64,000 nt of DNA from the NCBI GenBank assembly GCA_001603275.1, contig LUYM01000020.1, forward strand, positions 124,001 through 188,000. The letters run 5' to 3'. The notes below the pieces were generated by a model. It was not told the DNA's origin. It searched no databases and worked only from the letters and a program-made list of their open reading frames with translations. Below, one piece after another: positions 2,576 through 43,803 of the stretch; position 1 is the first letter of the stretch, and every line of letters begins with the position of its first letter. The position numbers and the translations under genes are program-made. This stretch comes from Actinomycetales bacterium Actino_02 (GTDB lineage Bacteria; Actinomycetota; Actinomycetes; Propionibacteriales; Propionibacteriaceae).

Positions 2576-3831
2576 AGATCGTCAAGCTCAGCGCCTCGAA
2601 CGTACTGCGACTGAAGGCCGTCGAAATCGAGCCCGACGGCGTCTTGCAGGTCATCACCGGCAAGAACGCCCAGGGCAAGAGCAGCGTGCTCAACGCGATC
2701 TACCTCGCCCTGGCCGGCGGAGCCGCCTCCCGCGAGATCGTCAAGCCCGTCCGTGAGGGCGAGGACTACGCCGAGGTGTCCGTCGATCTCGGCGAGCTCA
2801 TCGTGACTCGGACGTGGGACAAGGCCAAGGGCGAGAAGGCCACGACGAAGCTGACCGTGCAGTACGCCGACGGCTCCAAGCCGAACCGCCCCCAGGAACT
2901 CCTCGACGCCCTCGTCGGACACCTCGCGTTCGACCCGCTGGCGTTCACCCGGCTCAAGCCCGCCCAGCAGCGCGAGGAGTTGCTGGACCTCCTCGGTCTC
3001 GACTTCTCCGCCCAGGACGCCGAGCGCGCCCGGCTGTTCAGCCTGCGCGAAGCCACCGGCCAGGAGAAGCGGGCGTTCGGCGTGCAGCCCAAGCTCGACA
3101 AGGGTGCGCCGCTCACTGAGAAGTCGGCCAGCGACATCGTCGCCCGCGTTGCCACGGCGAACCGGATCGAGGAGCGGCGACGTGCCCTCGAGTGGCAGCA
3201 GGCCGACCGCCGGTCACGCATCGGTGGGATCGAGGAGCGAGTGGCCAGCCTCCAGTCGGAGATCAAGGCGTTGCAGGAGGAGGCCGCAGCGCACAGTCAG
3301 ATGATCATCGAGATCGCAGCCGAGGCCGCCGAACTGCCCGAGCCGGAGGACTTGGACGCGCTGCGCGCCGAACTGGCCGAGGTCGAGGACTACAACCGGA
3401 CCGTCCGGGAGAACCAGCAGATCCGCGACAAGACGGCCAAGCAGGACGAGCTCGCCGAGCAGTACACCGCATTGACCCACAAGATCGAGGGGATCGACGC
3501 GGCGAAGGACGCCGCGATCAAGGCCGCCGAAATGCCGGTCGACGGGCTCGGCGTGGATGGGTTCGGCGTGACCTTCAACGGGATGCCGCTCAACCAGGCG
3601 TCGAGCGCTGAGCAGATCCGGGTGTCGATGGCTATCGCGATCGCGCTGCACTCCGAGCTGCGAGTGGCGATGATCTCCGACGGCTCACTGCTGGACGCTG
3701 ACTCGCTCGCCGAGGTGAAGCGCATGGCGGCCGAGCATGACACCCAAGTGCTGCTGGAGATGGTCGGGGACGCCGAGTCCGCGGCGCCGGCGGCCATTGT
3801 CATCGAAGACGGATCGGTGGTGAAGCGATGA
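2572..3831 (+). CDS. RecF/SbcC-like AAA ATPase
   Basis: The GTG at 2572 is preceded by GAAGGGA and overlaps the upstream stop. The 419-residue protein starts with the strand pattern typical of RecF/SMC-type ATPases and has a Walker A at about residues 30-38 (GKNAQGKSS). The middle (about 190-300) is a coiled coil rich in Glu, Ala and Arg. The C-terminal part has a Walker B-like strand (VAMISDGSLLD) and a conserved helix. It is shorter than SbcC and lacks a Zn hook. In actinophages such proteins accompany a RecB/RecE-type nuclease, as here (next genes but one). A role in recombination or protecting DNA ends is likely. Confidence 0.8.
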   Translation: MKIVKLSASNVLRLKAVEIEPDGVLQVITGKNAQGKSSVLNAIYLALAGGAASREIVKPVREGEDYAEVSVDLGELIVTRTWDKAKGEKATTKLTVQYADGSKPNRPQELLDALVGHLAFDPLAFTRLKPAQQREELLDLLGLDFSAQDAERARLFSLREATGQEKRAFGVQPKLDKGAPLTEKSASDIVARVATANRIEERRRALEWQQADRRSRIGGIEERVASLQSEIKALQEEAAAHSQMIIEIAAEAAELPEPEDLDALRAELAEVEDYNRTVRENQQIRDKTAKQDELAEQYTALTHKIEGIDAAKDAAIKAAEMPVDGLGVDGFGVTFNGMPLNQASSAEQIRVSMAIAIALHSELRVAMISDGSLLDADSLAEVKRMAAEHDTQVLLEMVGDAESAAPAAIVIEDGSVVKR

Positions 3832-4472
3832 GGCTGACCATCCGCCCGCTCGGCGACTGGTCCGGGGAGCGCACTCCGCCTCACAAGCGGAAGGCTCACA
3901 ACTTCACTCGGCAGACCGGCAATGGCTGGCAGCGGCAGGACATTCCGTGGTCGGAGACGCTGATTCTCCTGGACCGTGAGCTCGTGGCCCTGGATGCATC
4001 GGCGGTGGTGCTGCAGATCAGCGTGACCGAGAGGGACATTCGCCTCGACGGTCAGTTGCGCGCCGATGCTCGGCCATCCGACCCGGCAGTGCGGCTGCTG
4101 TTCGACTCCAAGCACGGCCAGCTGACCTACCAGTGCGACCGGTTCGCAACCTGGCAGGACAACGCCCGGGCGATCGCGCTCGGCCTGGAAGCGCTGCGCA
4201 AGGTCGAGCGGTACGGCATCACTGAACGCGGCGAGCAGTACAAGGGATGGCTTCAGCTTGAGGCTGGCACCCCGTCCGTGTCCCCGCGAGAGGTGTTCGC
4301 CGCAGTGATCGGCCAAGGCGTAGACGCGGCCGACAGGAGTCTGACTGACGCCGATCTCTGGCGGCGCGCCCGGGCTATGGCCCACCCCGACCGCAATGGT
4401 GGACGGCGCGAGTTGTGGGACCAGGTCGAGGCGGCGGCCCGGACGCTCGGGCTCCTCGAGAAGAAGGGATGA
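3828..4472 (+). CDS. J-domain-like phage protein
   Basis: The 214-residue product overlaps the ATPase gene by 4 bases (ATGA). Its C-terminal 55 residues contain ARAMAHPDRNGG followed by LWDQVEAAARTLGLL, that is, an HPD loop with flanking helices as in DnaJ J-domains. The first 150 residues form a beta-rich region with two conserved aromatic stretches (NGWQRQDIPWSETL). Phage J-like proteins near replication genes could recruit host DnaK to phage replication complexes. No Cys-rich or Gly/Phe region of full-length DnaJ is present. Confidence 0.65.
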   Translation: MRLTIRPLGDWSGERTPPHKRKAHNFTRQTGNGWQRQDIPWSETLILLDRELVALDASAVVLQISVTERDIRLDGQLRADARPSDPAVRLLFDSKHGQLTYQCDRFATWQDNARAIALGLEALRKVERYGITERGEQYKGWLQLEAGTPSVSPREVFAAVIGQGVDAADRSLTDADLWRRARAMAHPDRNGGRRELWDQVEAAARTLGLLEKKG

Positions 4473-4476
4473 TGCG

Positions 4477-5544
4477 ATGGCTCGCCCCAAGATGACCAAG
4501 CTCGCGTGCGGCCACTACTCGGACAACGGCAAGTGCGAGATCTGCCTCGCCCGCGAAGCGATGGAGGCCGCCCAGGCTGCAGCACGTGAGGCCACTGCGA
4601 GCCGCCCGGACCCTACGATCCCGGCCCCTGCCGCTGCGGCACCGGAAAGTGTCGCTGCGGTCTTGGGGACGGGTGAGCCGACCGCCGGGGTGTACGACAT
4701 CCCGGACTCGATCTACTTCAAGGACCCCCTGAAGGCCTACGGCACCGAGTCGCTGTCCGGCTCGTCGGCGAGGTTCCTGATCCCGCCGTCGACGCCGGCG
4801 CACTACCGGTGGCGGATGGATCACCAGAACGATCCGACTCCGGCGATGATCTTCGGCTCGGCAGTCCACGCCCTCACGCTGGAGACTGCCGAGCTTGCGA
4901 TCTTCGAGGGCTCGGCATGGAACTCGGTGGCCGGACGGAAGTTCCTCATCGAACACGACCCGGACGGCGACGAAGCGCCGATCCTGGCCAAGGATGTGGC
5001 CGCGGCGAAGGCGATGGCCTACTCGCTGCGGCACCACCAGATCGTCGCCAAGGCGCTGACCAACGGCAGGGCAGAGCAGGCCATGTTCGCCCAGGATCCC
5101 GACACCGGAATCTGGCTGAGAGGCAAGCTCGACTACCTCCAGCAGGCCGTCAAGGATCGCCTCGTCATCACCGATGTGAAGACGACGCAGGATGCCTACT
5201 TCGGCGAGTTCTCCCGCTCGGCCGCGAAGCTCAGCTACCACGTCTCCGACGCCCACTACGCCCGGATCGTGAAGCTGCTCGGGCTGGCCAAGCGGGTCAC
5301 GATGATCTACGCAACCGTCGAGAGCCATCCGCCCTACCTGGTCAGCGTCCACCAGATCAGCGACGAAGACCTGCGCCGCGGTGACGAACTCGACCAACTG
5401 GCGATCCGCACGTTCGCCCGCTGCCTGGAGACCGGCGACTGGCCGGGATATCCGAACAAGATCAACAAGCTCACGCTCCCGGTCTACGCGGCCCGGAGCG
5501 AGGAAGAAGCGCTGCTCAGCGCCGAAGAAGGAGACCAGCAATGA
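4477..5544 (+). CDS. RecE/RecB-type PDDEXK exonuclease
   Basis: The 355-residue protein starts with a small Cys/His cluster (LACGHYSDNGKCEIC, residues 9-23), then an Ala/Pro linker. The nuclease core follows: FGSAVHALTLE near residue 127, GKLDYL with the metal-binding Asp near residue 218, DVKTT near 232, and a downstream Tyr/His helix. This order is that of the DUF3799/RecE-like PDDEXK nucleases. Such enzymes chew dsDNA 5' to 3' to give single strands for an annealing protein, which is probably the next gene. The genes overlap by 4 bases. The N-terminal zinc-like finger is an addition relative to the bare nuclease fold. Confidence 0.8.
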   Translation: MARPKMTKLACGHYSDNGKCEICLAREAMEAAQAAAREATASRPDPTIPAPAAAAPESVAAVLGTGEPTAGVYDIPDSIYFKDPLKAYGTESLSGSSARFLIPPSTPAHYRWRMDHQNDPTPAMIFGSAVHALTLETAELAIFEGSAWNSVAGRKFLIEHDPDGDEAPILAKDVAAAKAMAYSLRHHQIVAKALTNGRAEQAMFAQDPDTGIWLRGKLDYLQQAVKDRLVITDVKTTQDAYFGEFSRSAAKLSYHVSDAHYARIVKLLGLAKRVTMIYATVESHPPYLVSVHQISDEDLRRGDELDQLAIRTFARCLETGDWPGYPNKINKLTLPVYAARSEEEALLSAEEGDQQ

Positions 5545-6413
5545 CCACCGACAATCTGCCCGCCACCACCGGCCCGTTCGCCAAGCCGGCCTCGCAGGCC
5601 ACCGCGATCGAGCAGGCGTCCCGCGTCGCCGAGGTGCAGGCCCGAGTCACCGTCGCCCAGGCGTGCCCGCGGAATATGGACCGCGCCCAGATGCTGATGC
5701 GCGAGGTCTGCGCCACGCCGGCCCTGGCTAAGCGCGCGTTTTTCTCCTACCCGAAGGGTGATGCGACCACGGTCGAGGGCCCGAGCATCAAGCTGGCCGA
5801 GGAACTGGCCCGCGTGTTCGGCAACATCGACTACGGCCTGACCGAACTCCGCCGGGACGACGAGGCCGGCGAGTCGGAGATGATGGCGTTCGCTTGGGAT
5901 ATCGAGGCCAACACCCGCACCACGCGGACATTCATCGTGAAGCACGCGATCGACACCCGGAGGGGTCGCAAGCAGATCACCGAGCTTCGCGACATCACCG
6001 CCAACAACAACAACTTTGGCGGCCGGGCTGTCCGTGAGTGCATCTACAAGGTGCTGCCGTCCTGGTTCCGCGAGGAAGCCGAGCGGCTGTGCCGCGAGAC
6101 CCTGGCCAGCAATGCCACGCCGGAGAACATCGCCGCGATGATCAGCGCCTACAGCAAGGCGAGTGTGACCCTCGATCAGCTGGAGGCCAAGGTCGGCCGC
6201 ACCCGGGCGAAGTGGACGCCGCAGGACTACGCCCAGCTGACCACGCTCTACCAGTCGCTCGTCAACCGCGAGATCACCCGCGACGAGGCGTTCCCGCCTG
6301 AGGGAACCGACGACACCATGGCCGCCCTCGAAGCTCAGGCCACGCAGACCGAGGAGCCGCAGGGCCGACTGGTCCCTGAGGGTGTGCTGCCGATTGATCC
6401 GGGTGCGTCATGA
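5541..6413 (+). CDS. Probable ssDNA-annealing recombination protein
   Basis: The 290-residue protein is translationally coupled to the nuclease gene. It contains VEGPSIKLAEELARVFGNI around residues 73-91, a beta-rich part, then NNNNFGGRAVRECIYKVLP and an acidic disordered tail. Phage nuclease genes of the RecE type are nearly always paired with a RecT/Bet/Erf-type annealing protein, and size and order fit. I do not see the classical RecT signature, so it may be a divergent annealase class. Role inferred mainly from the neighbour. Confidence 0.55.
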   Translation: MTTDNLPATTGPFAKPASQATAIEQASRVAEVQARVTVAQACPRNMDRAQMLMREVCATPALAKRAFFSYPKGDATTVEGPSIKLAEELARVFGNIDYGLTELRRDDEAGESEMMAFAWDIEANTRTTRTFIVKHAIDTRRGRKQITELRDITANNNNFGGRAVRECIYKVLPSWFREEAERLCRETLASNATPENIAAMISAYSKASVTLDQLEAKVGRTRAKWTPQDYAQLTTLYQSLVNREITRDEAFPPEGTDDTMAALEAQATQTEEPQGRLVPEGVLPIDPGAS

Positions 6414-6646
6414 CGTGGCTGCTGATCCTCGGCGCCGCGTTGATCGTCGGGCTGCTCTTGGTGGCCCGACGGCACCTGACCAAGCGTGGCCAGGCTCGTG
6501 CTGCGGCAAGGGCTCAGCGGCGGGCCGACCTCGCGAAGTACGGCGTCTGCTCAAGGCAGTCGCCCACCGGTGGCCACCGATGCCACCTCCCGAAGAAAGA
6601 ACACGACGAGCACGAATGTAGGTGCAGCTACCGATGGACGAACTGA
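6410..6646 (+). CDS. Small membrane protein with a Cys/His cluster
   Basis: The 78-residue product has one N-terminal transmembrane segment (about residues 3-19), a basic linker, then a soluble tail with four Cys and several His (CSRQ, HRCHL, HECRC). The pattern suggests a small zinc site on the cytoplasmic side. Its ATG overlaps the preceding stop and its 3' end overlaps the next gene. No known family. Confidence 0.6.
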   Translation: MTWLLILGAALIVGLLLVARRHLTKRGQARAAARAQRRADLAKYGVCSRQSPTGGHRCHLPKKEHDEHECRCSYRWTN

Positions 6647-6903
6647 GCCCCAACATCACGAACGGACATCTCATCTCCCCGGCAATCAGCGACATCGCCG
6701 CCGAGCGGGCAACCCACGCCGCGCGCGGATGGACGCCTGAGCACGACGCCGAGCATGGCGTCACACACCTGGTGAACCTGGCTTTCGCCCGTCCAATGGT
6801 CAACTGGCGAGGCGGATACAGCCGCGCTGAGCTGGTGAAGGCCGCCTCGCTGCTCGTCGCCGCGATCGAGCTCCTAGACGCGATCGAGAGTGAGCAGTCA
6901 TGA
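6634..6903 (+). CDS. GWTxEHDxxH family phage protein (MazG-like)
   Basis: The 89-residue product has the signature GWTPEHDAEHG near residue 26 and the helix ELVKAASLLVAAIELLDAI near the C-terminus. This small all-alpha family is common in phages and prophages and is often labelled as a MazG-like nucleotide pyrophosphohydrolase; the EHD...H residues could bind metal. The ATG at 6634 has TAGGTG upstream; a GTG at 6622 is an alternative. It overlaps both neighbours. Confidence 0.7.
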   Translation: MDELSPNITNGHLISPAISDIAAERATHAARGWTPEHDAEHGVTHLVNLAFARPMVNWRGGYSRAELVKAASLLVAAIELLDAIESEQS

Positions 6904-13704: not shown

Positions 13705-14214
13705 ATGAAGAGACTAATAGTGGCCGTTGCGGCCACTCTGGCGCTGGCCGGGTGTTCGGCGTCCGGATCGCCGGCAGACTCGCCCAAGCCCTCGGCACGC
13801 GTAACCTCCGCCGCACCCTCGTCGATCGCCACCACCGCGATCACCGCGTCCCCGCCGGCCGCCCCTGAGTTTGTCGTCACTATCGACGGCTCACACAAGA
13901 CGAAGGACTTTGACGGAAAGCCGGCGCTCGTCGTCGATTACACCTTCAAGAACCACAGCGAGGAAGGTGCGACATTCATCGTGGCGATCTTGGCCAAGGC
14001 GTTCCAGAATGGCGTTCAGCTGGAGTCTGCGTTCGTCGTGGATGACAGGAAGTACAACCCTGGCCAGGGCATGAAGGAGATCAAGCCGGGGGCGTCGATC
14101 AAGGTACAGGCGGCCTATGTGCTCGCTGGGAAGTCGGATGTGTCGATCGAGGTGTCTGAATCGCTCAGCTTCGACGACTCACTGATTGCCAGCAAGACCA
14201 TCAAGGTCAAGTAG
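13705..14214 (+). CDS. DUF5067 lipoprotein, possible lysogenic conversion factor
   Basis: The 169-residue product has a lipoprotein signal peptide with lipobox LAGC (Cys17), a Ser/Ala/Thr/Pro-rich linker to about residue 50, and a beta-sandwich domain of DUF5067 type (VVDYTFKNHSEEGATFIVAI, KAFQNGVQLE, IKPGASIKVQAAYVL). DUF5067 proteins occur as surface lipoproteins in Gram-positive bacteria and phages. In a prophage a lipoprotein could block superinfection or change the lysogen's surface. It is separated by 117 nt from the early genes, so it may have its own promoter, but I saw none with good boxes. It converges on the leftward cassette. Confidence 0.75.
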   Translation: MKRLIVAVAATLALAGCSASGSPADSPKPSARVTSAAPSSIATTAITASPPAAPEFVVTIDGSHKTKDFDGKPALVVDYTFKNHSEEGATFIVAILAKAFQNGVQLESAFVVDDRKYNPGQGMKEIKPGASIKVQAAYVLAGKSDVSIEVSESLSFDDSLIASKTIKVK

Positions 14215-14226
14215 GGGCCCGGCGGG

Positions 14227-14457
14227 TCAGCGCTCGGGCTTGGCCCGCCAGTTGCCCGAGCCGGGCCGATCGTCAAGCCACTTCTGCAGCCGTGCGGCGT
14301 CCCATAGCGGCGTGCGCTTGTCGGGCCATTCCTCGACTGGCCGGCGCAGATCGAGCCCCGTCTTGCGCAGCTTGGCCATGCGCGATTGGAAACCTGCCTG
14401 CGTGACTCCGGCGAGCTTGGCCGCCTCAGACGACGTCAACGGCCGCCGGCGACTCAC
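14227..14457 (-). CDS. Small HTH (excisionase-like) protein
   Basis: The 76-residue basic product has a helix-turn-helix near its N-terminus (LTSSEAAKLAGVTQAGFQSR) followed by a wing-like segment (TPLWDAARLQKWLDD), as in excisionase and MerR-like small proteins. It overlaps the upstream gene by 4 bases. It is the last gene of the shorter leftward unit. A regulator or directionality factor is plausible. Confidence 0.6.
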   Translation of the reverse strand: MSRRRPLTSSEAAKLAGVTQAGFQSRMAKLRKTGLDLRRPVEEWPDKRTPLWDAARLQKWLDDRPGSGNWRAKPER

Positions 14458-14729
14458 CGGATCACCTGGCAGCGACCATCAGGGCTGAGGGTGTAGGCGT
14501 CGAAGATCATCGAATCGAGCGGGACGCGGTAGTGCTGCTCGCCGTCGGGAAACTCGTCATCGAGTTCGGCGGCATCCTCCGGCACGCGAAGTTCGATGAT
14601 CGCCTCACCGAAGCCGGTGGGATGGCCGTTCGGCCGGGTCGATGCGCAGGCGGTCGGGCCATCCAGTGCGCCGGCGCGGAGGATCGCCTCTGCGGCCTCG
14701 ACGGTCGTGCGGTGGTAGAGCGTGAGCAT
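14454..14729 (-). CDS. Small protein with YHRTT motif (ART-like?)
   Basis: From ATG 14729 the product is 91 residues; GGGAAGGA precedes it at good distance. A GTG at 14756 overlaps the stop of the upstream reading frame and would add nine residues. The N-terminus LTLYHRTTVEAAEAILRAG resembles the first strand and helix of ADP-ribosyltransferase/RNA 2'-phosphotransferase folds, found in a family of small mobile-element proteins. The rest of that fold is partly present (FGEAIIELRVP). Activity cannot be claimed. Confidence 0.55.
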   Translation of the reverse strand: MLTLYHRTTVEAAEAILRAGALDGPTACASTRPNGHPTGFGEAIIELRVPEDAAELDDEFPDGEQHYRVPLDSMIFDAYTLSPDGRCQVIR

Positions 14730-14752
14730 CGGGCGATCCTTCCCGGTAGTGG

Positions 14753-14951
14753 TCACTCCGCGAGATCCACGGAGACGTTGAGGTAGGCCTCCTCCTCGCC
14801 GATGTACTCGCCGCGGTGGAGCTTGGACTCGAGGTCTTCGCAGACCTGCAGCACCTCGGCGGGAGCCTCAGGGTTGAGCGACTTCAGGGTTTCGGCGATC
14901 GCGTAGCGGTCGGCCGTGGTGGTGGTCGGTGATCGCGTAGGTTCCGGACAT
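14753..14951 (-). pseudogene. Frameshifted small gene, first of the short leftward unit
   Basis: A good ATG (14951) reads MSGTYAI and then leaves the coding frame. The continuing coding frame, one base off, reads ADRYAIAETLKSLNPEAPAE and goes to TGA 14753-14755, which overlaps the next gene's GTG. The sequence TACGCGATC occurs twice, 34 bp apart (at 14931-14939 and 14897-14905). Removing one copy and the intervening bases restores a single 54-codon frame from the ATG. So a 34-bp insertion or duplication probably broke the gene; a sequencing difference or translational frameshift is the alternative. Confidence 0.5.
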
Positions 14952-14995
14952 TTCAGGTCTTCTCTCTGGTGGTCTCGCGGTGTTGCGATAGCTCA

Positions 14996-15024
14996 ATGAT
15001 GACGCGTTAGCGCGTCATTGTCAA
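14996..15024 (-). promoter_or_regulatory. Leftward promoter with palindromic operator (copy 1)
   Basis: On the minus strand TTGACA (15024-15019) and CATCAT (15001-14996) are 17 bp apart. The spacer holds the palindrome ATGACGCG-ttag-CGCGTCAT (14999-15018). Almost the same promoter-operator occurs at 18236-18264, matching in 16 of 18 palindrome bases, so a common repressor is likely. The -35 lies in the last codons of the upstream gene. It would drive the genes from 14951 to 14227. Confidence 0.65.
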
Positions 15025-15435
15025 CGGGTTGATCGAACGAGTTTCCTCCTGGGCCATCCAGAAGCCGAGCCGCCAGGCATTGACGCCCTGTCGGCGCGTG
15101 GCTCGGTCGACCGACAGGGCGAACCATGGGCGAAGCGCGAGAATCAGCCACGCGGGCCAGTCGCCAGCTGAGCGGGGCAGGGTGCCGTCCGCGCCATGGT
15201 CGTAGCCGTCCATGCCGAGCGAGCGGACGAAGACGTCCGGCGACTCGTCGGCGGTCGGTCGGTGCCAGCCGGTGCCCGACCATGCGATGCGGGGTTCCGG
15301 CTTCAGTCCGGACCAGAACGCCCGGAGCGTGCTCGAGGCGATGTGGGCGGCGCGGCGGATCCGCCAGGCGGCCGGGGTGCGGCCGGGAACGGCGGTGCCG
15401 GGGACGGGCGGCGGGTAGCTGTGCAGGTTGGGCAT
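15007..15435 (-). CDS. Hypothetical protein, last gene of the long leftward unit
   Basis: The ATG at 15435 lies behind GAGAGGAA. The 142-residue basic product contains many Trp (AWRIRRAAHIASSTLRAFWS, GDWPAWLILALRPWFALSVD); one moderately hydrophobic helix at about residues 95-115 might touch the membrane. No family recognised. The second leftward promoter overlaps its 3' end. Confidence 0.6.
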   Translation of the reverse strand: MPNLHSYPPPVPGTAVPGRTPAAWRIRRAAHIASSTLRAFWSGLKPEPRIAWSGTGWHRPTADESPDVFVRSLGMDGYDHGADGTLPRSAGDWPAWLILALRPWFALSVDRATRRQGVNAWRLGFWMAQEETRSINPLTMTR

Positions 15436-15479
15436 GGTTGGCTTCCTCTCGGGGTTGTGGTTGGTTGCGGGTGGTGGTC

Positions 15480-16451
15480 TTAGGTGGTCGGCAGTGCTGC
15501 GGTGGCGGCCCGGTGGCCCTTGATCTTGTGCCAGGGGATTCGGTCGGTCCACGAGTAGTCCGTCTCGACGGTCACGGACTTGGCGCTGGCACGGACGACG
15601 CGGCGCCACCCGCTGAACTCGGTGCGGACGATGTCACCGGGGCGGACGGTCTGCGGGCTGTAGTCGCTGGCCTGGCCGGCCTCGATCTGGTCGGCGCGGA
15701 TCTGCTGCCAGTAGGCCAGCTGATCGGCGAGCTCGGCGCGGCGGGCGGCGTAGGCCGTCCGGATGCGCTCGGCCTCGTCGGGCCGCGGTGCGCGGTACTG
15801 CTCCGGCTCGGTGGCGGTCGCGCTGTACCAGCGCGGCGCGGTCGGCTTGCGGTCGATGGCGCGTAGGTCGGCCTCGAGTTTGGCGATCCGGTTACCGACC
15901 GTGGCCGGGTTGTAGCGGGCCGCTGTGGTGTGCGTGGCGGCGTCGGCCCGGCGCTCGGCCTCCTCGGCGTCACGCGTCGCGACGACGGCGCGCCCGGTGG
16001 CGGCGTGCGCCCTCTCGATCGCGGCACGGTGTCCGCGCTCCGAGTGGTGGCCGATGAGGATCGGCTGCCCGTTGTCGGGCAGGCGGTCCAAGGCGGCGCG
16101 CTCTCGATCCCAAGCGGTGCCGGCGGCGGCGGCCTTGCGGTCTGCCTTGGCCTCGAGGGCGGCCACCCGATCGGCCTGCCGGGCGATCTTGTCGGCCTCG
16201 ACTTCGGCGGTGGTGCGGATCTCCTGCGAGATCTCGAGCGCGACCTCGAAGCCGGCGGCGCGTAGTGCCTCGGCGGTGCGGTTGATCTTGGCCAGTTGCG
16301 GCAGGCGGTCGCGGGAGTTCGGCACGAACCACGCGCCGATGCTGCGCCCCCAGCGCCAGCCGGCAGCCTTCAGAACCTCGGCGGAACCGTCACCGCGGGC
16401 CGTGCCCTCGATCATGGTTCCGGCCTCGTGAGTGTGAGTGATGGTCAGCAT
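15480..16451 (-). CDS. DUF3560 domain protein
   Basis: Starts at ATG 16451 behind AAGGAG, 28 nt after the hammerhead 3' end. The first 75 residues match DUF3560: LTITHTHEAGTMIEGTARGD, AAGWRWGRSIGAWFVPNSRD and a helix. The middle is a long charged coiled coil; the C-terminal 60 residues form a beta-rich domain (VRPGDIVRTEFSGWRRVVRA). DUF3560 proteins are typical of actinobacterial plasmids, integrative elements and phages; function unknown. The protein is 323 residues, a usual length. Confidence 0.8.
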   Translation of the reverse strand: MLTITHTHEAGTMIEGTARGDGSAEVLKAAGWRWGRSIGAWFVPNSRDRLPQLAKINRTAEALRAAGFEVALEISQEIRTTAEVEADKIARQADRVAALEAKADRKAAAAGTAWDRERAALDRLPDNGQPILIGHHSERGHRAAIERAHAATGRAVVATRDAEEAERRADAATHTTAARYNPATVGNRIAKLEADLRAIDRKPTAPRWYSATATEPEQYRAPRPDEAERIRTAYAARRAELADQLAYWQQIRADQIEAGQASDYSPQTVRPGDIVRTEFSGWRRVVRASAKSVTVETDYSWTDRIPWHKIKGHRAATAALPTT

Positions 16452-16479
16452 CGCGCTGCGCTCCTTTCGTGCTTCGGCT

Positions 16480-16536
16480 TGTCTCGTCAGGCCGCCGGGT
16501 GCCACCCGGTCGGCGACGCCTTGCGGCGTTTCGACA
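16480..16536 (-). ncRNA. Type II hammerhead ribozyme, in front of the DUF3560 gene
   Basis: Read on the minus strand from 16536: stem II strand UGUC, core GAA, stem III ACGCC with GCAA tetraloop and GGCGU (giving the required A15.1-U16.1 pair), cleavage nucleotide C17 at 16515. Stem I follows (GCCG, bulged A, CCGGGU, loop GGC, ACCCGG, CGGC), then core CUGACGA (CUGANGA consensus) and GACA closing stem II. Every conserved core base of the hammerhead is present and all three helices form. Predicted self-cleavage is between 16515 and 16514, leaving a 63-nt 5' UTR before the DUF3560 start. The DNA also resembles the second element in layout but not in stem sequence, which is compensatory evidence for a conserved fold. 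Confidence 0.9.
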
Positions 16537-16555
16537 GATCGGATCACCTCCCAGG

Positions 16556-16948
16556 TCACAGCCAGATCGAGCCGTCGGCGTAGACGTAGACGAGTTCGGC
16601 GCCGCCATCAGCGAGCGGGGTGCGGATCACGACGAACGACGAGCCGACGCCGTTACCGGAGTCGTCGGCCGCCCACTTGCACGCCTGCTGCTCGACCACA
16701 TCCAGATCCGGATCGGCGGTAGCGGCGGCGTCCAGCATCTCCGAGCCGTCTTCGTACTCGCACGCGGGAATGGTCGGGTCGGCCATCATCGCGTCATAGA
16801 GAGCCCGGCCGGCCGGCCGCGTGCCGTCGTGCGCGGCATAGGTGCCGGTGGTGTCAGTGGGGACGCTGGCCTGCGCTGCCTGCGCTCCAGTGAGGGCGAT
16901 GGTGGCGGTCAGTGTGGCGGTGGTGATGATCGCGGCGAGCTTCGACAT
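16556..16948 (-). CDS. Secreted hypothetical protein of the leftward cassette
   Basis: The 130-residue product starts at ATG 16948 after the second hammerhead. It has a classical signal peptide (AAIITTATLTATIALTGAQA, cleavage likely after AQA-AQA near residue 25). The mature part is small and acidic with two Cys (ACEYEDG, QQACKWAAD) that could form a disulphide, and ends in VYVYADGSIWL. No family recognised. An exported protein in this cassette suggests an effect outside the cytoplasm. Confidence 0.65.
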   Translation of the reverse strand: MSKLAAIITTATLTATIALTGAQAAQASVPTDTTGTYAAHDGTRPAGRALYDAMMADPTIPACEYEDGSEMLDAAATADPDLDVVEQQACKWAADDSGNGVGSSFVVIRTPLADGGAELVYVYADGSIWL

Positions 16949-16975
16949 TTCAGTGGTTCCTCTCGGGTGGTGGCT

Positions 16976-17032
16976 TGTCTCTTCAGGCGTCCGGTAGCCG
17001 ACCGGGGCGCGACCGCTCACGCGGTTTCGACA
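16976..17032 (-). ncRNA. Type II hammerhead ribozyme, in front of the secreted-protein gene
   Basis: Minus strand from 17032: UGUC (stem II), core GAA, stem III ACCGC with GUGA tetraloop and GCGGU (A15.1-U16.1), C17 at 17011. Stem I is GCG, internal CC opposite A, CCGGU, loop CGGCU, ACCGG, CGC. Core CUGAAGA and GACA of stem II complete it. All conserved residues are present. Stems I and III differ from the other copy by paired changes while length (57 nt), core and stem II are kept. Predicted cleavage is between 17011 and 17010, 62 nt before the next ATG. The element begins 3 nt after the stop codon of the upstream gene, so ribosomes ending there would overlap its 5' strand. Confidence 0.9.
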
Positions 17033-17035
17033 GGG

Positions 17036-17569
17036 TCAGCAGGCGCGGCGGGCGGGTGTGCTCGGGGTGACGGGAGTGTCATCAGCGAACCGGCGGCCGA
17101 CAGGGGCGGCGGTGGCATCGAGACTCAGGGTTGAGCGCTCTAGCCATCGGCGAGCGACCTGGCGCGGCGTCTCCCAAGAGAGTTGCTGGCACGTCTGCAC
17201 TCCGGCGTGATCAATGAACATCTCGCCGTCAACGTCGAACCCGATGAGGCTGATAGCCCACCCGATCGCGTGCTCTGAGTAGTCGCGCTGGCAGATCACG
17301 CCGCAGCACGACCACTGGCTATTGCCGGTCGCGTGGTAGCCATCATCCATGCCGTCGAACCGGCTGGACTCGTAGCGGTCGCAGATCGCCCGCACAGTGC
17401 CGTAAGCCGGGCCGTCTTCCCATCGGACAGACAGCCAGCCGTAGGCGCTGCCGCGATCCATCGTGACGCTGAACCGGACGCCGGGGAATGCGCGCCGGAG
17501 TTCGCTCCGGAGTGCTGCGGCGGTCTCTTTGGTGGTGGCGCGAGTCGCGGCCGGGGTGATCGTGGTCAT
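17036..17569 (-). CDS. LPD29-type (large polyvalent protein associated) protein
   Basis: The 177-residue product contains LRSELRRAFPGVRFSVTMDR followed by GWLSVRWEDGP, the signature of the LPD29 domain found in polyvalent proteins of mobile elements and as single proteins in actinobacteria. Downstream are a CDRYESSRFDGMDD segment and two Cys pairs. These domains are thought to travel with conjugative elements and phages; the role is unknown. It ends 3 nt before hammerhead 2. Confidence 0.75.
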   Translation of the reverse strand: MTTITPAATRATTKETAAALRSELRRAFPGVRFSVTMDRGSAYGWLSVRWEDGPAYGTVRAICDRYESSRFDGMDDGYHATGNSQWSCCGVICQRDYSEHAIGWAISLIGFDVDGEMFIDHAGVQTCQQLSWETPRQVARRWLERSTLSLDATAAPVGRRFADDTPVTPSTPARRAC

Positions 17570-17609
17570 TTCGGGATCCTCTCGATGCTGTGTTGCGGGG
17601 TCGGGGTGG

Positions 17610-18194
17610 TCAGAAGCCGACAGCTGCGGCGGTAGCGGCGTCGGAGTCGCCTAGCCAGGCGTCGAACGTGAGGCGCGGGTTACGCGTCCAGAACCACAAG
17701 AGTTCTTCGGACGCGTACAACTCGGCGCGGCGGGCCGGGCCCGTGAACAGCGAGCGGGCCGAGATCCCGGCGAGGCGAGCGGCCGGCTTCAACAGCTGGC
17801 CGTTGCACTCAGCCTCGGCGGCCAGATACTGCAACTCGATCGACTCCCGCCACATGGCCAGCAGTGCGGCGCGGGTGGTGCCGGTTCCGCGGTAGCCCTG
17901 CCGACGGGTGAGCTCGCGCTCAGCCCAAGCGCGGACCGTGGCCGCGTACTCGGGAGCGCAAAGCTCGGTGAGGGATTCGGTGTCCCATTCCGCGGCGCGC
18001 TCGCCGGATAGGTCGATCTCGATCCGGTAGCGGCGGCCGACGGTAACGCGAGTGCGCAGGCAGCATTCGTAGTAGCGGCGGCCATCCTGGGAGAACCGAC
18101 TAGCGCCGTGGTGGTAGCGGCGGCCGACCAAGTCGGAGTGTCGGCAGTGCGCGTAGCGGCGGCCGGCGTACTCGGTGGTCTGGCTGTCGGTCAT
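17610..18194 (-). CDS. Hypothetical protein, first gene of the long leftward unit
   Basis: The 194-residue product has repeated GRRY motifs in the first 55 residues (AGRRYAHC, VGRRYHHG, DGRRYYEC, VGRRYRIE), and a helical C-terminal half. The GRRY repeats with His and Cys suggest a beta-hairpin repeat or metal site. I do not recognise the family. It follows the operator-containing promoter at 18236-18264 by about 40 nt. Confidence 0.6.
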   Translation of the reverse strand: MTDSQTTEYAGRRYAHCRHSDLVGRRYHHGASRFSQDGRRYYECCLRTRVTVGRRYRIEIDLSGERAAEWDTESLTELCAPEYAATVRAWAERELTRRQGYRGTGTTRAALLAMWRESIELQYLAAEAECNGQLLKPAARLAGISARSLFTGPARRAELYASEELLWFWTRNPRLTFDAWLGDSDAATAAAVGF

Positions 18195-18235
18195 TGCCCT
18201 GAATCTCCTGCGGTAGTAGGTGTGCCGTTGTGTCC

Positions 18236-18264
18236 ATAGTGACGCGCTAGAGCGTCACTGTCAA
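18236..18264 (-). promoter_or_regulatory. Leftward promoter with palindromic operator (copy 2)
   Basis: Minus strand TTGACA (18264-18259), 17-bp spacer, CACTAT (18241-18236). The palindrome AGTGACGC-gctaga-GCGTCACT (18238-18259) occupies the spacer. It shares TGACGCGYTAGMGCGTCA with copy 1 at 14996-15024. A repressor bound here would block RNA polymerase. It drives the long unit 18194 to 15007, including both hammerheads. Confidence 0.7.
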
Positions 18265-18686
18265 GTGGGATGTTGCTGCTCGGTATGCCATTGGCCGTAT
18301 ATGCGCCGGCGCTATTGGCCCGCCGAGTGGCCGGCGGATTCGATGGCTTAGCCCTGGCCTATGTGGTGGAGCAGCGATGGCCTGGCGATGGGTGAGCTCA
18401 TCGGCATGCCGGGGTGAGGTGTGGGGGCAATGCCGGCTGAGATGCCGCGGAGTGGCATGGCGGCGGATGCCTACCCCATCTCCCACCCGCCACAAACCCA
18501 CGCATTTTGAACGAAAGCCCTTGTCACAGCCCGTTCCGCGCCCCGAAAACCCAGCTGACCCCCGGGGGGGTGGATACCGCCGCGTGCCCCCTGCCTCTCC
18601 CCCCTGACCCGTGAACCGGGGTTGCGCGCGTGCGCGCGCGAGAACACCCGCTCGATCGCGACACGACGGATTCTCAGAGAGGGTGG
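18265..18686 (+). other. No gene seen; divergent region before the late genes
   Basis: About 420 nt between the leftward promoter and the late promoter. There are repeated short words (ATGCCGG, TTGGCC), a C5/G7 run (CCCCCGGGGGGG, about 18560-18571) and an alternating GC tract near 18615-18640. No coding frame has a ribosome site or phage-like composition. The position, just upstream of an HNH-terminase block, is where cos sites lie in many related phages, but no direct sign of cos was found. Confidence 0.4.
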
Positions 18687-18718
18687 TTGACAAGTGCCAA
18701 CAAAACCCGTGCTAGGCT
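18687..18718 (+). promoter_or_regulatory. Probable late promoter
   Basis: TTGACA at 18687-18692. The best -10 is TAGGCT at 18713-18718 (20-bp spacing) or GCTAGG at 18711 (18 bp). It faces the structural genes, and nothing else in the upstream 400 nt looks better. The -35 is a perfect consensus; the spacing is the weak point. Confidence 0.55.
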
Positions 18719-18727
18719 GCGGCCGTC

Positions 18728-18760
18728 AGGCCGGATTGCTCCTCTGTGGAGATCCGGCCT
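18728..18760 (+). terminator. Hairpin just after the late promoter, attenuator-like
   Basis: A 9-bp stem (18728-18736 with 18752-18760) with an inner CTCC/GGAG helix, followed by TCGTCGTTCT. It lies 10 nt after the promoter -10, so it would be at the 5' end of the late mRNA. It may attenuate late transcription in the lysogen or stabilise the transcript. Confidence 0.5.
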
Positions 18761-18792
18761 TCGTCGTTCTCGGCGTCGAGGGGGTGATCCTC

Positions 18793-18840
18793 GTGGCCAA
18801 GAGCAAGTGCAAGCCGAAGCCGAAGCCCAAGGGTCGGTGA
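18793..18840 (+). CDS. Tiny Lys/Pro peptide upstream of the HNH gene
   Basis: A GTG-started 15-codon frame encodes MAKSKCKPKPKPKGR. Its TGA (18838-18840) overlaps the GTG start of the HNH gene, so ribosome coupling is likely. The composition is too biased to be accidental noise alone, but peptides this short are hard to prove. It may be a leader peptide or a small nucleic-acid-binding peptide. Confidence 0.35.
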   Translation: MAKSKCKPKPKPKGR

Positions 18841-19124
18841 CCTCGGGAGCCTGGGGCGGCCGTCGCGCCGCCGAGGCTCTGGATCGAGTCAAGACGGTCG
18901 GGCGGGCGAAGAACCTACCGTGCTTCATCTGCAAGCTGCCAATCGACTACGACCTCGAGTGGCCGGACCTGATGAGTTGCAGCGTCCAGCACATTCGGTC
19001 TCGCAAGGCTTACCCCGAACTGACGTGGGTGCCGAGCAACTGGGCGGGCGCGCACCTCACCTGCAACTCGGCGGCCGGCGACGGATCGTCCGATCCGTAC
19101 GATCTCGGCGCCACCTCGCTCTGA
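18837..19124 (+). CDS. HNH endonuclease, terminase-associated
   Basis: The 95-residue protein has CFICKLP near residue 31, SVQHIRSRKAYPEL with the catalytic-type His near 55, and GAHLTCNSAAGD near 76, that is the C-x2-C, H, and H-x2-C-N order of HNH nucleases. Small HNH proteins next to terminase genes are needed for cos cleavage in HK97-like phages, and the position here fits. GTG 18837 overlaps the preceding stop. Confidence 0.75.
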   Translation: MTSGAWGGRRAAEALDRVKTVGRAKNLPCFICKLPIDYDLEWPDLMSCSVQHIRSRKAYPELTWVPSNWAGAHLTCNSAAGDGSSDPYDLGATSL

Positions 19125-43636: not shown

Positions 43637-43759
43637 GGAGGCCAGGGTAGAAGCCGGCGGCGACAGTGGGTCTAGCCAACCACCGGGAGCGAGTAGGTCA
43701 CTTAGGCTCGACCATTGGCTAAACCTACAGACCCCGTGCCTTGTCAGAGCGGATAGGCG

Positions 43760-43803
43760 GGGGATTATGAGTCCCCTGCTCTGACCGGCTGAGCTACCGC
43801 CCC
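43760..43803 (-). tRNA. Interrupted tRNA-Met (CAT), 5' half only; right attachment site
   Basis: Read on the minus strand from 43803: acceptor strand GGGGCGG, TA, D arm GCTC-AGCCGGTCA-GAGC, A, and anticodon arm GGGGA-CTCATAA-TCCCC (anticodon CAT with elongator-type CTCATAATC). After the arm the sequence continues CGCCTATCCGC instead of a variable loop and T arm; no GGTTCGA is found. So only the 5' half is here. A promoter-like TTGTCG-N18-TACCGT lies upstream (minus strand, about 43820-43850). The 3' half should be at the left end of the prophage, outside the window. Confidence 0.7.

Follow-up and report, generated by a model that had tools for sequence, protein, structure and literature searches.

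Type II hammerhead ribozymes are not new to prophages. The class was described by Perreault et al. in 2011 (PMC3088659), and that paper already contains clustered prophage hammerheads, together with the proposal that they process RNA. Cleavage in vitro was seen for tandem arrangements from three bacterial genomes, and for one of them also in E. coli; 4 of 18 consensus hammerheads showed none in vitro (PMC3088659). The same paper notes ardA near prophage hammerheads.

The window discussed here is the whole 64,000-nucleotide stretch that was analysed. It holds two type II hammerheads around a single small gene of a prophage. This resembles the triple hammerhead around ardA in Agrobacterium tumefaciens (PMC3088659): both sets flank accessory genes in a prophage-like region. 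Unlike that set, the window has two copies, a small secreted-protein gene, and LPD29 and DUF3560 genes as neighbours. Pfam gave no ArdA match among the 11 window genes scanned. Compared with the Rfam family RF02276, the likeness lies in topology, core, cleavage triplet, the pseudoknot between loop I and the 3' tail, and clustering around prophage genes. The differences are that both window copies score below the curated level and that their stem I is interrupted.

With a probability of roughly 0.78, the element at 16976-17032 is a self-cutting type II hammerhead in an intercistronic gap of a prophage operon, where it splits the polycistronic RNA. The analysis documents its sequence, predicted fold, position and strand, and the covariation of its family. 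Given the earlier publication, what is added is the two window copies themselves and the tight layout of stop codon, ribozyme and start codon.

Table 1 Features of the ribozyme locus, with positions in the window
Feature	Position	Strand	Basis or remark
Second promoter-like palindromic site	14996..15024	minus	promoter scan, 10/12
Gene after sibling ribozyme, DUF3560	15480..16451	minus	PF12083, E=8.4e-17
Sibling type II hammerhead	16474..16536 (body 16480-16536)	minus	R1 48.9 bits; predicted cut 16515/16514
Predicted one-gene RNA, 496 nt	16515..17010	minus	would follow from the two predicted cut sites
Small protein gene, 130 aa	16556..16948	minus	gene caller; between the ribozymes; signal-peptide-like N terminus by eye
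Type II hammerhead ribozyme	~16970..17032	minus	R1 model and MFE fold; 57-nt body 16976-17032 plus pseudoknot tail
3' pseudoknot strand AGCC	16972..16975	minus	pairs with loop I GGCU, 4 Watson-Crick pairs
Predicted cleavage site	17011/17010	minus	after C17 of GUC; read from core sequence
Upstream gene, LPD29 domain	17036..17569	minus	PF18847, E=1.6e-21; stop ends 3 nt before ribozyme body
First gene of putative operon	17610..18194	minus	gene caller; PHROG 12049, E=2.2e-13, near C-terminal end
Promoter-like TTGACA-17-CACTAT, palindromic spacer	18236..18264	minus	pattern common to 14996-15024; possible operator

Structure of the two elements

The RNA of the element reads UGUC-GAA-ACCGC-GUGA-GCGGU-C, then a stem I hairpin, then CUGAAGA-GACA. 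Its core (CUGAAGA and GAAA) and its cleavage triplet GUC agree with the definition of the class (CUGANGA, GAAA, NUH). Stems I and III are closed by loops and stem II (UGUC/GACA) is open, both in the minimum free energy (MFE) fold of the isolated element and in the alignment of the covariance model R1, described below. Folded in isolation, the minus strand has precisely this three-stem hammerhead as its MFE structure. The loop I-tail pseudoknot, a common but not universal feature of the class, is also present; in the sibling it has three pairs. By sequence and predicted fold the element is a type II hammerhead, and cleavage activity is predicted for it.

An earlier note on this DNA had called a hammerhead at this place, before the small secreted-protein gene, without naming a strand. 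The call holds for the minus strand; the core, the topology, the pseudoknot, the genomic context and a covariance model trained independently all support it. The predicted cut agrees with the position that the note gave. The pseudoknot strand was absent from it, so the unit is somewhat longer than the 57 nt described.

Both copies have a 57-nt body and the same plan, as the note had said. They are identical at 41 of 57 positions, or 21 of 36 outside the core. The sibling has ACGCC/GGCGU, GCAA and CUGACGA where the element has ACCGC/GCGGU, GUGA and CUGAAGA. Two base pairs of stem III are reversed between the copies (C-G/G-C and G-C/C-G), and there are paired changes in stem I too, so that the paired differences claimed for both stems are real. 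The note's further step, to two independent copies, is secure only as far as the paired changes go: an old diverged duplication would look alike.

Stem I is interrupted in both, by an internal loop (CC/A) in the element and by a single-base bulge in the sibling. Fold energy is ordinary: against shuffles the element has a z of 0.08, and the sibling with its tail -1.43. Since shuffles of the element fold just as well as the element itself, its fold energy taken by itself argues for nothing.

Flanking RNA changes the predicted fold. With 40 nt of upstream sequence competing folds dominate, at a penalty of 8.24 kcal/mol for the element when the pseudoknot is left uncounted. Adding 30 nt downstream brings this to 6.27, and swapped flanks give 7.4; the 111-nt context folds differently from the isolated element. 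For the sibling, again with the pseudoknot uncounted, the penalty is 8.63 with 40 nt upstream and 3.18 with downstream sequence added. It fares worse with its native flank than with a swapped one (8.63 vs 5.23). The idea that the upstream flank acts as a switch found no general support, the native penalty being below the swapped one in 85 of 148 cases.

Motif and covariance searches

The motif GTCGAAACN{8,20}GTCN{15,35}CTGANGAGAC matches twice in the window and not once in 100 dinucleotide shuffles. A slightly stricter form with TGTC/GACA matches twice in the 3.05-Mb genome, never in the reversed control, and never in the 40 other genomes searched.

Model R1 was trained on 40 relatives that do not include the window copies; 37 of them come from viral contigs and 3 from genome contigs. 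These are 40 of the 58 non-window candidates and make up alignment A1; several contigs contributed more than one sequence. In a search of the window, R1 scored the element at 50.0 bits (E=2.8e-13) and the sibling at 48.9 bits (E=6.2e-13). Two further window matches were weak, at 14.3 and 13.2 bits (E=0.03 and 0.06). The next match genome-wide, with 150 of 2698 first-look candidates scored, had 15.8 bits (E=0.48).

Within the genus R1 matched 1 of 30 genomes, its own, and none of the 29 others. Across a sample of the order, 3 of 293 genomes had a match: the own genome and two others (G148 and G192), in a search with stricter filters and 18 candidates scored per genome, which may lose weak matches.

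The earlier note had named a covariance search as a check, and the outcome depends on the model. At the Rfam gathering threshold no hammerhead was reported in the window and both copies were missed, while R1, trained on relatives, found the element clearly. In a search by E-value the sibling reached 28.8 bits with RF02276, against a gathering score of 37; the element was absent up to E=10. Both copies thus score below 37, the level of curated RF02276 membership.

Among 37 strong R1 matches (E<1e-7, counted by hand) in 12 loci with relatives, 23 reach the Rfam threshold and 14 fall below it, among them ones at L022, L029, L136 and L137. The Rfam threshold therefore omits a good part of such ribozymes.

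Stem I is interrupted in L029, L302 and L303 as it is in both window copies. A bulged stem I as the mark of a subtype missed by Rfam was considered and rejected, given that ribozymes with an AAGCC tail and a good stem III divide into 12 interrupted and 11 continuous. Further, L022 and L137 are missed by Rfam with a continuous stem I, and the interrupted L133:2079 passes at 37.5.

Covariation and pseudoknot

In the 40-sequence alignment, 92.2% of cells pair. Cells in which both partners have changed number 121, as compared with 37.7 in shuffles, an excess to which kinship of the sequences can contribute even without structure. If the partner is slid by 1-3 columns only 14-47 such cells are left, although the structure was written from the same 40 sequences, which favours it over slid versions.

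The pseudoknot is a further check, because the alignment structure does not contain it. When the middle 10 nt of stem I are set against the initial 7 nt of the tail, 83 of the 88 long-stem-I ribozymes form 4 or more Watson-Crick pairs; in 500 shuffles of the tail the number averaged 20.2 and never exceeded 32. The pairing covaries among relatives. In the form with a short stem I, 4 pairs were found in only 5 of 60. Pairing between loop I and the tail is the pseudoknot described for type II hammerheads (PMC3088659).

Operon context

The ribozymes lie on the strand of all four local genes, minus. The IMG/VR contig IMGVR_UViG_2751185590_000001 (53,537 bp) carries this region of the window, with three proteins at 100% identity and both ribozymes.

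The 130-aa protein encoded between the ribozymes has no Pfam match and a weak match to PHROG 19904 (E=3.9e-5). It had 0 matches in phage records, and among the 293 sampled genomes of the order it occurs in its own only, with no relative in the other 292. LPD29 does not seem to be a standing partner of the ribozyme: at L127 and L128, which carry 46-47% relatives, the DNA examined held no R1 match. The protein of the first gene matches only 644-716 of the 745 positions of a head-morphogenesis PHROG, as if it were a detached domain.

Two promoter-like sites share the form TTGACA-17-CAYYAT, with a spacer palindrome TGACGC..TA..GCGTCA. Patterns written from these two sites matched nowhere in 100 shuffles and at no third place in the genome; with a looser palindrome pattern, matches elsewhere came at chance level only. 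A generic promoter scan of 14200-18900 found the site at 14996-15024 alone; at 18236-18264 the -10 is too weak. The palindromes are possibly operators of one phage repressor. We infer that the two sites would be repressor-controlled promoters, with 18236-18264 driving the ribozyme operon. If that one is indeed a repressor site, a resting lysogen may not express the operon, and the absence of its RNA there would not refute activity.

The proposed course of events is as follows. A minus-strand transcript probably starts near 18230. Its RNA would fold into three stems held by the loop I-tail pseudoknot and cut itself at the site predicted in Table 1, and the sibling would cut at its own. The upstream piece would then end in the stem III hairpin just past the LPD29 stop codon, with a 2',3'-cyclic phosphate. 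The middle piece would be a one-gene RNA of 496 nt for the secreted protein, starting with the stem I hairpin and a 5'-OH, and the downstream piece would carry the DUF3560 gene. What the phage would most likely gain is that neighbouring genes can be controlled separately in RNA stability and in translation.

Survey of relatives

The survey drew on IMG/VR, five genome contigs and the window, for 340 distinct ribozymes on 253 contigs. Of the 149 pattern matches examined first, stem III reaches 4 or more pairs in 143 and stem I 3 or more in 146; with shuffled letters these rates are 20% and 6.8%.

From the 340, 29 were dropped for weak stems, which left 311; a further 22 are run through by a called gene and 9 lack a neighbour, leaving 280. 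The gene caller was home-made and based on codon usage, and its starts are less certain than its stops. A longest-ORF caller had been tried, but it placed ORFs over 97 of 155 ribozymes, many of which were taken as spurious, and the codon-usage caller was used instead.

The layout is regular. Among the matches listed, 264 of 280 ribozymes have the same sense as both neighbouring genes; 13 agree with the downstream gene alone, 3 with the upstream gene alone, and none is antisense to both. In the surveyed loci, 4056 of 4564 pairs of adjacent genes lie on one strand. The upstream stop codon ends within -5 to +1 nt of stem II in 200 of the 267 cases listed, and the start codon follows the ribozyme at a distance of 10-60 nt in 226 of the 277 listed. 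Counting one ribozyme per contig, the stop abuts in 162 of 221 among the matches listed.

This was compared with random placement in the free gap, leaving out rows in which the gap was too short for the reserve or longer than 300 nt. Abutting stops were observed 176 times against 90.2 at random (n=224). Other settings for the room reserved for the ribosome binding site (RBS) gave 155 vs 115.5 (n=189), the weakest of the three comparisons, and 52 vs 27.9 (n=64).

The survey points to a rule of placement (stop, ribozyme, start, on the sense strand) that any account of function has to explain. A search of the open-access literature found no paper on stop-codon placement or on long phage arrays, which is weak evidence as subscription papers mostly lie outside such a search.

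One such account has translation set the time of cleavage. While a ribosome terminates at the adjoining stop, it would cover the 5' strand of stem II, and folding and cutting would follow once it has cleared. Stops closer to stem II than random placement gives are what this would lead one to expect, and here too the stop lies 3 nt before the ribozyme body. Yet compaction of phage genomes could also bring stop and ribozyme together, the sibling has its stop 20 nt away from stem II, and native upstream RNA in general masks the fold no more than swapped RNA does, the native penalty being lower in the 85 of 148 cases given above. We consider timing by translation unlikely.

Arrays and neighbouring genes

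Some relatives form long arrays. Locus L123, from a 65.6-kb contig, has nine ribozymes at 3616-6706 that alternate with mostly small ORFs, for the most part of 35-93 codons; two of these (5161-5370 and 6347-6628) come from the ORF list and were not called by the gene caller. Eight of the nine are strong R1 matches. The ninth has E=0.0015, with a stem III that is enlarged by eye. At L041 eight ribozymes alternate with genes.

Pfam matches for 110 downstream genes include DUF932 (4), AAA_5 (4), GP88 (2), RadC, ArdA and DUF3560; DUF932 also occurs in one control gene. For 94 of 105 upstream genes (9 were already in the downstream set and 2 lay at a contig end) they include the ArdC N-terminal domain (2), ArdA and LPD29. 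PHROG families matched number 42 downstream and 17 upstream, compared with 127 matched by 110 control genes taken from these loci, where the larger family lists cover the best 25 families and ribozyme neighbours are shorter (median 96 vs 113 aa). The control genes are 110 of 121 drawn, the last 11 being left out, and the matches listed for them include terminase, helicase, polymerase and portal. On the whole, the neighbours of the ribozymes tend to be small accessory genes, a few of them anti-restriction genes.

A type II hammerhead in a genome of the same order (G148) lies closely behind an ArdA anti-restriction gene, at L302:1501-1581. It shares with the element at 16976-17032 the interrupted stem I, a UGGCU loop, an AAGCC tail and a close upstream stop. 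Unlike that element, it has a long stem III loop and follows an ArdA gene (PF07275, E=6.9e-27).

A wider view would make type II hammerheads a general punctuation of phage accessory and anti-restriction operons. Repeated cassettes of stop, ribozyme and RBS would yield one-gene RNAs with hairpin-bearing 5'-OH and cyclic-phosphate ends, and termination of translation would gate the cut. This is speculative and, taken as a whole, rather doubtful. If it were true, the hairpin-bearing ends could resist host decay or RNA-targeting defence.

Proposed processing and its alternatives

Processing of the operon RNA by self-cleavage is the reading we prefer. The R1 matches, family covariation, pseudoknot, sense strand, promoter-like site, layout elsewhere, arrays and the published cleavage of tandem hammerheads count for it. 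Rejection by Rfam, the interrupted stem I, ordinary fold energy, competing folds with the flanks and the published consensus hammerheads that did not cleave count against it.

An inactive relic, or a structured spacer that does not cut, would fit three observations: the score lies below Rfam gathering, the 29 other genomes of the genus that were searched hold no match, and the native flanks bring competing folds. A relic would hardly be expected to keep all core bases intact in both copies, with paired stem changes and the pseudoknot retained, and we hold this explanation to be very unlikely. Ligation of the excised RNA into a circular mRNA, for which the two cuts would leave a 5'-OH and a 2',3'-cyclic phosphate on one 496-nt RNA, is extremely unlikely because the host genome has no RtcB ligase match (0/1, with matches in 9/14 control genomes by the same search); Perreault et al. 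reported that they could detect no spliced or circular products (PMC3088659).

For processing by self-cleavage this prophage offers a compact setting: both copies are intact, they enclose one gene and they lie behind a recognisable promoter-like site, and cutting, RNA ends and the effect on each gene could be measured in it.

Other observations

At 43685-43803 on the minus strand of the window, Rfam reports a tRNA match (38 bits) with a CAU anticodon and long insertions, without an ARAGORN call.

The outer pair of stem II is unevenly distributed. Pattern scans of IMG/VR found at least 120 stretches with G-C, at least 120 with A-U, 30 with U-A and 14 with C-G; among the matches listed, G-C and A-U predominate at the outer pair, and U-A and C-G are uncommon. 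The stop codon shares the outer base in 55 of the 267 cases listed. A shared stop codon as the cause of the purine was considered and rejected: without the shared cases the listed matches still have G in 94, A in 91, U in 17 and C in 10.
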